Positions 1,333-4,843 of a stretch of 64,000 bases of DNA are shown in pieces. Origin of the DNA: Dehalogenimonas sp. W. Its GTDB lineage: Bacteria > Chloroflexota > Dehalococcoidia > Dehalococcoidales > Dehalococcoidaceae. Position numbers and translations under genes: made by a program. Under the pieces are notes generated by a model that had not been told where the DNA came from, made no database searches, and saw only the letters and a program-made list of their open reading frames with translations. Location of the stretch: positions 1,488,001 through 1,552,000 of the forward strand of contig NZ_CP146612.1 of assembly GCF_037094495.1 (NCBI RefSeq), in the 5' to 3' direction. The stretch's first letter is position 1; every line of letters starts with the position of its first letter.

Positions 1333-2502
1333 ATGAAATTAATGGTTGTGGGCTGCGGGCAGTGCGGCGGTCGTATTGCCGACCAGTTTTCTAAATTAAA
1401 CCGGGTTGCCCATGTGCGTCGGGGTGTGGATATCGCCACCAATGTGGTCGCAGTAAATTCGGACGTGGCCGATCTTTCCGGGTTGGAGCATATCCGGGCT
1501 GATTACCAGCACCGGATTCTCATCGGTTCTCAAAAGACGTCCGGTCACGGTGTTGGTAAGATCAACGAGATGGGAGCTGAAATTGCTCGTGACGACGGCG
1601 ATAAACTGATTGAGGCAATCAAAAACACCCCTAATTTTGGGGAAACCGACGCCTTTCTGCTGATCGCCGGCGCCGCCGGTGGTACCGGTTCCGGTTCCAT
1701 TTCGGTGCTGTCTCAGCAGATTAAGGAAAGATTTCCGGAAAAGCCGGTATATAACATGCTGGTTTTGCCCTTCGCCTACGAAGAGGCGACTGAGGAACGC
1801 TCGGTTTTCAATGTCGGTATCTGCCTGAAATCCTGCTATCTGGTGGCCGACGCGATATTCCTGGTGGACAACCAGCGGTTTATTAAAGCCAGCCACTCAC
1901 TAAGAGCGAATCTGGATAAGATTAACTATCACATGGTCAAACCGTTTTATAATTTATTATGTGCCGGAGAAGAAAAGAATTCCAAGTATATCGGTTCTAA
2001 AGTAATGGACGGTGGTGATATCATTCAAACGCTGTCCGGTTGGACGGTTATCGGCTTCGGACAGGCCAAGACGCCGAATCTGCGTTTTAGCCGAAATGCT
2101 GATTTCCGGGAACAAAGCAGTGAAGTCCGGAAAGGCGCTGAGGCGATAAACGCTGCGCTGGCCGACTTGTCATTGCGGTGCAACCCGACTGATGCCAAGC
2201 GGGGTCTGTATCTGCTGACCGCCGCTCAGGCGGATATGAGCATGGACCTGATCAATGAGATGTCCGGCGCTCTGAAAGGGATGGCCACTGAGGCCACCAT
2301 CCGTACCGGCGATTATCCGCGCGGCGACAAGACGCTTGACGTTACCGTGGTGCTGTCCGAACTGGTTAATTCCAGCCGGGTGATGGATTACTTCAGCAAG
2401 ACCATCAGCTATATTAACAATTCCCGTCGCCGTCAGTCCGGTCTGGAGTATGGTTTCCGCGGTGTGGAAGACTCCTTCAAGGATATTCCTTCACTTTTGT
2501 AG
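1333..2502 (+). CDS. Tubulin/FtsZ-superfamily GTPase (CetZ-like)
   Basis: A 389-residue GTPase of the tubulin/FtsZ superfamily that should polymerise in a GTP-dependent manner. The N-terminal nucleotide loop reads GCGQCGG (residues 7-13), closer to tubulin/CetZ GQCG than to bacterial FtsZ GGGG. The tubulin signature loop is GAAGGTGSG (113-121), and the T7 hydrolysis loop keeps an Asp pair at D226 and D229 (DGGD) before a GWTVIGFG segment that aligns with FtsZ helix 8. There is no FtsA- or SepF-binding C-terminal tail motif and no fts gene nearby, so it is probably not the division FtsZ. GAGGG lies 7 nt before the ATG. It ends at a terminator shared with a convergent coiled-coil gene. Its specific function is unknown. 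Confidence 0.85.
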   Translation: MKLMVVGCGQCGGRIADQFSKLNRVAHVRRGVDIATNVVAVNSDVADLSGLEHIRADYQHRILIGSQKTSGHGVGKINEMGAEIARDDGDKLIEAIKNTPNFGETDAFLLIAGAAGGTGSGSISVLSQQIKERFPEKPVYNMLVLPFAYEEATEERSVFNVGICLKSCYLVADAIFLVDNQRFIKASHSLRANLDKINYHMVKPFYNLLCAGEEKNSKYIGSKVMDGGDIIQTLSGWTVIGFGQAKTPNLRFSRNADFREQSSEVRKGAEAINAALADLSLRCNPTDAKRGLYLLTAAQADMSMDLINEMSGALKGMATEATIRTGDYPRGDKTLDVTVVLSELVNSSRVMDYFSKTISYINNSRRRQSGLEYGFRGVEDSFKDIPSLL

Positions 2503-2516
2503 TTTTCGCAGGCAAT

Positions 2517-2550
2517 AAAAAGGGGCTGGCGTTAAACGCCAGCCCCTTTT
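2517..2550. terminator. Bidirectional intrinsic terminator
   Basis: A near-perfect hairpin with GGGGCTGGCG and CGCCAGCCCC arms around TTAAA, flanked by A-runs on the left and T-runs on the right. It serves both the tubulin-like gene (ends 2502) and the convergent coiled-coil gene (ends 2570). Confidence 0.9.
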
Positions 2551-2569: not shown

Positions 2570-4843
2570 CTACTTGTCTTCCGGGGGTTCCGGCGGCAGA
2601 TTTTTGGCCTCTTTAAACATCTGCTCCAGCATCTCCATCCGGCTTTTCATGGTCTCACGCGGCGGCGGGGGCGCCTCCTCTTCGGGGGCTGCTTTTGCTG
2701 TTGGAGCTGGTTCCGGCTGGGGTTCGGCCAGTGGCGACGGACGACGGGGTTTGGCTGCTATTTCAGAGGCGGGTTTTTTAAGTTCATCAGCAGTTTCAGC
2801 AATCAGCCATTTAGTCCCGCTACCGATATCCGTCGCGTTCTGGACAATTTCCTGAAAAGTGCTGATCCAGGAACGGGCAGCCTCCTGGGCGGCGCGGCGA
2901 GCGGCTTTGACAGCATCCCGGGCGGCCCTGGTGGAAGCTTCACTGGCTTGTTTAGCCTCTTCAATGAGTTCCTGCATACGTTCAATGGTTGCCTGGGAAG
3001 CCGCGGCGGAATTTTCGGCCATCTCTCGGGTCGTTCGGCTTTGCTCCTCAATAGCCTGGATATGTGATTTGGTTTCTTCCATCCAGGTAGAAACCGTCTG
3101 TTTGGCATCTTCGGTCATTCGGAAGACCCGGTCCATGGCTTCCTGGGCTGTCTTACGGGCGGCCTCGGCGGATTGGACAGCAGCCTTGCCCGCTTCATCA
3201 GCTTTGGCGGCTGCTTCTCTGGCATTGTTACCCGCAGCTTCCGCGGCCTGCCGGGCAGAGCGTCCGGCTTCTTCAGCCCTGGCGATAGCCTCGGCAGCCA
3301 GTTTGACGCAATTCTCACTGGCCAGTTCTGAGCTTTTGACTGCATTCTCGCTGGCGTCCATTGCCATTCTGGTGGCCTTTTCCGAGGCTTCTCTGGCTTC
3401 ATGTCCGGCACTTTCGGCCCGTTGAACAGCCTGTTGAGAAAGCGCAGCGGCGCGTTCCCCAGCTGCCTGAGCAGACAAAGAGATTTCTTCGGCGGTCTTG
3501 ATGGCCTTTTCATAATTTTTGGAATAACCAGCGATAGAGGTTTCGGTCTGTTTGGCCAGTGTCTCGGCCCGTTTGATAATATCCCGGGTTTTAACTTCTA
3601 CCACTTCGGCAGCTTTTTTGGCCTCCGTGGCAGCTAATTCCGCACCGGCGACACCGGCCGCGGCCAGTTCGGCCTTTGAGGCGGCATCAGCAGCCATATT
3701 CCTGGCGGTTTCAGCAGCCTGGGTGACGGCGGCAGTAGCTGTTTCAGCTCTGGCGATAGCTGCCTGGGAGGCCTCAATGCTGGATTGGGATGCCGTCTCA
3801 GCGGCTTTGATAGCCTTGTTGGAAGTCTCAACCGATAAACGGGAAGCCTGCTCTGCTGCTTCTTTGGCGGCCTCGCCGGCGGTTTTGGCTAATTCGGCAG
3901 CCTGCTGGGAAATACTGACGGCCTTTTCTCCGGCAGCTTTGGCTTCAGCGGCCGCATCGTTGGCGGTTTTTACCGCCTTATCGTAAGCGGCGGTGTAGGA
4001 GGAGGCTGATTCATGAATCTGACGGGCAATCGCCTCGGCCTGCTGCACAGCCTCCGACGCCTGCTGTTCCGCGGTGGCGACAGCTTTGGCAGCTTCAGAT
4101 GCGGCATCGTCCAGCGCCTGTTTGGTCCTGGTGACGGTGGTATCGGTAAAACTGCGAGTCTGTTCAGCGATGGTATCGGTATTTTTGCGGGCCTCGGCAA
4201 CCAGAGATGCTACATCTCGTTGTGCCTGGGCAATCACGCTGGCAACCTTTTCTTGGGTTCTGGCAACCGCCTCAGTGGCTTCCTGGGCGTTCTCTTGGGC
4301 GTCAGTCCGGGCATTTTCAGCCGCGGCCATAGCTTCTTTGGACGTAGCCAGGGCACGCGATGATTCCTCGGCGATGGTTTTCGCGGCTGCTTGAGCCTCC
4401 TTCAAAGCCTGTTGCGCCTCCCGGTTGGCGGCAGCTATTTCATCCTTTAACTCTTTGACCGTGGTTTCGGCTTTTTTAGAGGCATCCCGGTAGGCGCGGT
4501 TGAGTTCGTCAGCACCGGTCCCGGCGGCAGCAATGGCATTTTCGGCTTTGCGGAGGGCCTCTTCAAAAGCACGAGAGCCTTTTTCGTTCGCGTCCTGTGA
4601 TTTTTGGGCGGCCTCTTCCGCCAGGCTGATAGCCTTGTCGTAGTTTTTGGCATAATTACGAGCGGCGTCGCCGGCGGCTTTCACCGCTTTATCCGCTTGC
4701 TTAACGGCTTCCTGGGCCTGCCGTTCGGCATTATCCACAATGGTGCGGGCGGTGCGGGCGATGTCACTGGCCTCTTTCATCGCCTCTTTGGCGGCATTGA
4801 CTGACATTTCGCCTTTGGCCTGGAGATCATCTTTTTCCGACAT
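2570..4843 (-). CDS. Giant alanine-rich coiled-coil protein with proline-free rod
   Basis: A 757-residue protein composed almost entirely of Ala, Glu, Lys, Gln and Ser in heptad/hendecad-like helical patterns. Residues 1-690 contain no proline, implying a very long helix or coiled coil; there is a single Cys (512). A proline-rich linker (about 691-730) and a short amphipathic C-terminal helix follow. Three internal copies of a tyrosine-marked unit occur: NYAKNYDKA (63), SYTAAYDKA (282) and GYSKNYEKA (439). No signal peptide or membrane segment, so it should be cytosolic. GAGAGG lies 5-6 nt before the ATG and it has its own strong promoter. It could be a cytoskeletal rod, a nucleoid-associated filament or a structural scaffold; no enzymatic domain is visible. 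Confidence 0.8.
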   Translation of the reverse strand: MSEKDDLQAKGEMSVNAAKEAMKEASDIARTARTIVDNAERQAQEAVKQADKAVKAAGDAARNYAKNYDKAISLAEEAAQKSQDANEKGSRAFEEALRKAENAIAAAGTGADELNRAYRDASKKAETTVKELKDEIAAANREAQQALKEAQAAAKTIAEESSRALATSKEAMAAAENARTDAQENAQEATEAVARTQEKVASVIAQAQRDVASLVAEARKNTDTIAEQTRSFTDTTVTRTKQALDDAASEAAKAVATAEQQASEAVQQAEAIARQIHESASSYTAAYDKAVKTANDAAAEAKAAGEKAVSISQQAAELAKTAGEAAKEAAEQASRLSVETSNKAIKAAETASQSSIEASQAAIARAETATAAVTQAAETARNMAADAASKAELAAAGVAGAELAATEAKKAAEVVEVKTRDIIKRAETLAKQTETSIAGYSKNYEKAIKTAEEISLSAQAAGERAAALSQQAVQRAESAGHEAREASEKATRMAMDASENAVKSSELASENCVKLAAEAIARAEEAGRSARQAAEAAGNNAREAAAKADEAGKAAVQSAEAARKTAQEAMDRVFRMTEDAKQTVSTWMEETKSHIQAIEEQSRTTREMAENSAAASQATIERMQELIEEAKQASEASTRAARDAVKAARRAAQEAARSWISTFQEIVQNATDIGSGTKWLIAETADELKKPASEIAAKPRRPSPLAEPQPEPAPTAKAAPEEEAPPPPRETMKSRMEMLEQMFKEAKNLPPEPPEDK

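Follow-up and report, generated by a model that had tools for sequence, protein, structure and literature searches.

What does a bacterium do with a single protein chain that could span about 100 nm? The window analyzed here, a stretch of 64,000 nucleotides from Dehalogenimonas sp. W, carries a gene for such a protein, and the ORF noted earlier at 2570–4843 was confirmed; it lies on the minus strand and encodes 757 aa from an ATG start. Its residues 1–690 are free of proline as claimed, the first proline being residue 691, and are rich in Ala (28%), Glu (12.5%), Lys (7.7%) and Gln (6.4%), with Ser and Thr also prominent. The best clue to function is a gene that the original prediction did not mention, a CetZ-type tubulin gene that adjoins the rod gene and converges with it, the two gene ends lying 67 bp apart (Table 1). 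The reading we favor, and consider rather probable, is that the protein serves as the rod dedicated to a CetZ cytoskeletal module of two genes, often three, docking through its C-terminal helix, spacing, bundling or tethering filaments, and aiding cell shape.

Table 1. Features of the rod and cetZ genes, in window coordinates
Feature	Position	Strand	Remarks
CetZ-family tubulin-like GTPase, 389 aa	1333..2502	+	Convergent with rod gene; Pfam, PDB sequence and fold matches
CetZ C-terminal tail ending FKDIPSLL	2425..2499	+	Clade-specific Phe at the third position ahead of Ile-Pro
Inverted repeat bordered by runs of A and T, AAAAAGGGGCTGGCGTTAAACGCCAGCCCCTTTT	2517..2550	.	Read directly in the sequence
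Rod protein, 757 aa	2570..4843	-	ATG start; helical rod, Pro-rich linker, C-terminal helix, short tail
C-terminal motif helix, residues 728–747, proposed attachment site	2603..2662	-	Invariant R735, L739, M742
Pro/charge-rich linker, residues 688–727	2663..2782	-	
Ala-rich proline-free rod, residues 1–690	2774..4843	-	Hydrophobic period 3.585
Conserved rod-end segment SWISTFQEIV, residues 658–667	2843..2872	-	F663 nearly invariant among 20 rods
YSKNYEKA element, residues 440–447	3503..3526	-	
Probable hinge GVAGAELAAT, residues 397–406	3626..3655	-	AF2 helix break; dip in periodic power
YTAAYDKA element, residues 283–290	3974..3997	-	
YAKNYDKA element, residues 64–71	4631..4654	-	Retained by four members of the genus; sister genus has a related YTALY

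Spectral analysis of residues 1–640 gave a single sharp hydrophobic line at a period of 3.585 residues with a power of 77.5, while the maximum at the helical period among 2000 composition shuffles was 12.5, which places the suspected coiled-coil periodicity far above chance. The hydrophobic phase is roughly constant along the rod apart from a weak stretch at residues 365–421, where local power falls to 1.8. An AlphaFold model of low confidence (mean pLDDT 53) contains helices at residues 4–396, 407–687 and 728–747. From the dip in power together with the break in the model, the window rod probably has a hinge separating two extended helices, whose lengths work out by simple arithmetic at about 59 and 42 nm. 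The continuous helix of some 100 nm that had been envisaged thus holds as to great length, since a fully helical rod would measure about that, but probably not as to continuity. The proline-rich linker and short C-terminal helix, which had been likened to an attachment region, are both present, and the helix is the best-predicted portion of the model. Its motif, R-[LM]-[ED]-x-L-x2-M-[FY], is constant among rods despite their varying length. Only four columns are invariant in an alignment of 20 rods (A644, R735, L739 and M742). Three of the four fall in the C-terminal helix, the best candidate for a docking site.

Three tyrosine elements of the form Y-x3-Y-[DE]-K-A had been proposed as the defining repeats. 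The elements exist, each one residue further along than first given, yet they are only partly kept within the genus, with one related YxxxY in the sister genus and none elsewhere, and they were rejected as the repeat unit for want of conservation beyond close relatives. The real unit, clear only in relatives, is 25 residues or seven turns long, with a consensus near SAKEAAEESxRASQEAIxRAEExxK. Identity at lag 25 reaches 0.51 in relatives, compared with at most 0.25 in 300 phase-preserving shuffles. Where spacing between units is irregular, the departures from 25 are mostly +11, +22, +25 or +14, and 86% keep the helical phase. In the window rod, identity between residues at lags 7, 11, 18 and 25 is higher than in any of 1000 shuffles; against phase-preserving shuffles lags 11 and 18 remain above, while the lag-25 identity of 0.186 is within their range (maximum 0.202). 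The window rod is accordingly a degenerate version of the repeat, and its unit count from the 25-mer profile is partly circular, as it was included in the training set. The helical pattern is retained in relatives and rod length differs between species: 26 rods of 425–910 aa have periods of 3.570–3.590. A period of 25/7 = 3.571 lies between those of heptads (3.5) and hendecads (3.667), from which little supercoil is expected.

Composition of this kind can suggest a protein that coats lipid or granules with amphipathic helices (apolipoprotein or phasin-like), or a LEA-like stress protein, and the Ala/Glu/Lys content of the rod and sub-threshold Pfam matches to ApoLp-III and Phasin_2 fit that suggestion. 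However, every match of the window rod is under the curated cut-off (15.3 vs 24.9 bits for phasin and 16.7 vs 36.3 bits for apolipophorin-III), and the LEA, alanine-zipper and Ser-Ala repeat matches were likewise discarded. LEA and apolipoprotein-type 11-mers have an expected period of 11/3 = 3.667, which is not the period of any of the rods. Since this explanation also leaves the cetZ linkage and the C-terminal motif unaccounted for, we consider it very improbable. A LEA-like identity in particular was rejected, there being no Pfam LEA match above cut-off and the period not being 3.667. Matches to phasin, BORCS6 and other helical families in a few homologues were taken to be effects of composition. 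The expectation that no known family would match was upheld: neither LEA, KfrA, DivIVA nor any other Pfam family scored above its cut-off with the rod. DivIVA gave no Pfam match to the window rod at E up to 1, nor to 20 homologues at 0.01, and no KfrA N-terminal DNA-binding domain was matched in Pfam or NCBIfam.

The neighboring gene product matches Pfam PF00091 Tubulin (1.7e-28, 100.6 bits, cut-off 33) and PF21011 CetZ_C (1e-17, 64.6 bits, cut-off 21.6). Its closest solved sequences are 4b46 and 4b45, and the top fold matches of its model are 4b46 (CetZ1), 4b45 (CetZ2) and 3zid (CetZ). All 23 rows of a CetZ alignment keep the GTP-binding GGTGSG as well as two T7-region Asp. A TubZ-like partition system, with the rod as a DNA segregation partner, would likewise place an accessory gene beside a tubulin-family gene. 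However, the locus is chromosomal, Pfam and NCBIfam scans returned no DNA-binding or plasmid-type domain, and the tubulin is a CetZ by both sequence and fold, with TubZ (4ei7) only 30th among the fold matches, all of which makes that reading barely credible. The inverted repeat between the two genes is likely a bidirectional terminator common to both.

The window CetZ tail ends in DIPSLL, which we take to be reminiscent of the FtsZ C-terminal peptide. Three residues before the Ile-Pro of the tail, F, I or L is found in all 29 CetZ proteins of the rod-linked clade, whereas 42 of the 43 remaining CetZ proteins have S, A or G. A tail specific to its partner may account for this, yet a single ancestral substitution could explain the difference as well. 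Two further CetZ paralogues are encoded in the same genome, G000 (L051:6910-8091 and L052:7988-9163); eno and gapdh lie just upstream of one, and NADH dehydrogenase genes downstream of the other. Genus members without a rod contain a diverged CetZ with 44% identity and no DIPSLL tail (L065:7262-8473 in G007 and L066:7170-8408 in G002).

To avoid low-complexity artefacts, linkage across genomes was assessed with a profile built solely from the last 32 rod residues, outside the repeats. A scan of genome contigs with short peptide patterns from the rod, which are ill-suited to such a low-complexity protein, gave no confirmed match. The profile identified 30 loci in 61 related genomes, one per genome except for two in G032, and at 29 of them the rod lies beside a cetZ of a single clade (clade A, support 100/97). 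The thirtieth (G052) is a 46-aa rod piece at a contig start, with a clade-A cetZ on the same contig. Five genomes outside the profile training set agree with the linkage (G012, G033, G052, G056 and G107). When 197 genomes of the class were searched, the sole strong match outside the order was in G107, again beside cetZ, and five weak matches (E 0.002–0.09) were also obtained. Orientation is tail-to-tail in nearly all cases, one of the two G032 loci being co-directional. Within the genus, rod and clade-A CetZ occur together in four genomes and are both absent in four. The clear exception is G016, in which clade-A cetZ is kept while no rod is detectable; in the fragmented assemblies G019 and G038 the contig with the rod has no cetZ.

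Since convergent genes do not share a transcript, linkage here is weaker evidence than an operon would be. The rod could be an independent, intermediate-filament-like scaffold resembling Scy or FilP, placed next to cetZ by synteny and not by function; the lack of an operon agrees with this, and Actinobacteria do possess long Ala-rich rods tied to cell division and the cytoskeleton (PMC9858780). Nevertheless we judge it unlikely, because the pair persists while the genes flanking it mostly vary between genomes, because the motif occurs only beside one CetZ clade and never with the paralogues beside eno/gapdh or nuo alone, which fall outside that clade, and because rod and clade-A CetZ are jointly absent in the four genus members mentioned above. 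The near-constant tail-to-tail pairing with one CetZ gene suggests instead that rod and CetZ are probably partners, in what would be a hitherto undescribed internal skeleton of Dehalococcoidales.

In about a dozen genomes a small helical protein (146–196 aa), whose C-terminal tail contains Trp (QAWKIY, for example), is encoded between rod and cetZ, including L041:10968-11483, L060:9058-9624, L061:275-832 and L038:9830-10315. It is absent from the window. A 779-aa rod with a period of 3.56 is encoded at L138:5651-7990 (G023); it differs at its C-terminal end, which is possibly TPR-like, and lacks the RLExLxxMY motif.

For the CetZ-linked module, we propose that CetZ, predicted to form GTP-dependent filaments, is the other main part. 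The rod itself is probably a coiled coil, dimeric or of higher order, with an alanine core and a length of roughly 50–125 nm by species; such cores are used by hendecad-containing dimers, e.g. FilP and Scy (PMC9858780). The 25-residue repeat (7+7+11, seven turns) would make it nearly straight, with little supercoil. Held behind a flexible linker, the conserved C-terminal helix would dock on CetZ, either at the filament face or at the tail, and the rod would then space, bundle or tether the filaments. Dehalococcoidales have lost peptidoglycan, and their cells are irregular discs or cocci (PMC10284905), which makes an internal skeleton for shape reasonable; the CetZ-rod skeleton may help to set the shape of these peptidoglycan-free cells.

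A variant of this reading is that the rod anchors CetZ elsewhere, to the membrane, the division machinery or other rods that are tail-anchored, without spacing filaments. The same genome encodes such tail-anchored rods, of similar period, including one whose gene converges with ftsA-ftsZ; within the genus their presence and absence match those of the CetZ rod. However, across the order the two kinds co-occur incompletely, and contact of the rod with partners of this type is itself conjecture; we think the variant rather doubtful. The tail-anchored rods resemble the CetZ rod in being Ala-rich and proline-poor with periods of 3.56–3.63, but they have another head (KPLPQILDEMD), lie at other loci, and bear a C-terminal membrane helix in place of the RLExLxxMY motif.

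One of these, an 811-aa Ala-rich protein, has a ILTKPLPQILDEMD head and a membrane helix at the C-terminus; it is encoded at L156:7144-9579 (-), equivalent to about 1454143-1456578 of G000:C1. Genes of its type converge with ftsA-ftsZ in four members of the genus (also L159, L160 and L181), the very four in which the CetZ rod occurs. A similar rod gene is found two genes upstream of ftsA, in another orientation, in G011 and G049 (L163 and L164), and the remaining ftsZ loci examined have no tail-anchored rod beside ftsZ. Further rods with the same head are found beside thrS and infC (L157:7683-9014 (-) and L146:4173-8308 (-)), with two in tandem in G010. The KPLPQILDEMD head also stands alone on short proteins, at G000:C1:1285149-1285361 and as ORFs of about 90–140 aa in other genomes.

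Returning to the CetZ-linked module, a broader picture can be drawn, which is possible but speculative: Dehalococcoidales without peptidoglycan might have an internal skeleton made of CetZ and a specialized rod, its length differing by species and its function comparable to that of microtubule-associated spacers; a related rod, tail-anchored and beside FtsZ, might link the network to the membrane. Shape maintenance, as discs or irregular cocci, in these peptidoglycan-less organohalide-respiring bacteria becomes directly testable. The explicit seven-turn repeat of 25 residues, with variable length and fixed phase, should also be of use to coiled-coil biology.

CetZ-like proteins have already been reported in Dehalococcoidia (PMC9871819), while a later study of CetZ described the family as archaea-specific (PMC9856176). 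CetZ tubulins give archaeal cells their shape, though few of their partners are known; the rod gene is a conserved and nearly exclusive companion of cetZ across more than 20 bacterial families. No rod partner was found in the open-access CetZ papers searched, nor any open-access paper describing the rod or its pairing with cetZ. The window CetZ is like Haloferax CetZ1 and CetZ2 in its Tubulin and CetZ_C domains and its fold, but is bacterial, has a conserved DIPSLL-type tail and is paired with a long rod. Ala-rich helical proteins of LEA or KfrA type are similar to the rod in composition; the rod differs from them in having no Pfam match, a period unlike that of the 11-residue class, an invariant C-terminal motif and the CetZ linkage. 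Also comparable are Scy and FilP of the DivIVA-like superfamily (PMC9858780), which are very long, Ala-rich, cytoskeleton-linked coiled coils of variable length with many 11-residue elements. By the Ala-rich hendecad criterion used for them the rod is indeed Ala-rich, but its period reflects mixed 7- and 11-residue elements and not pure 11/3. The rod also differs in its lack of a DivIVA match (although Scy itself is N-terminally truncated, PMC9858780), its 25-residue repeat, its CetZ neighbor and a conserved motif that is C-terminal and not N-terminal. We regard the rod as a new family within a kind of system already known, in which a coiled coil accompanies a filament of the tubulin family.
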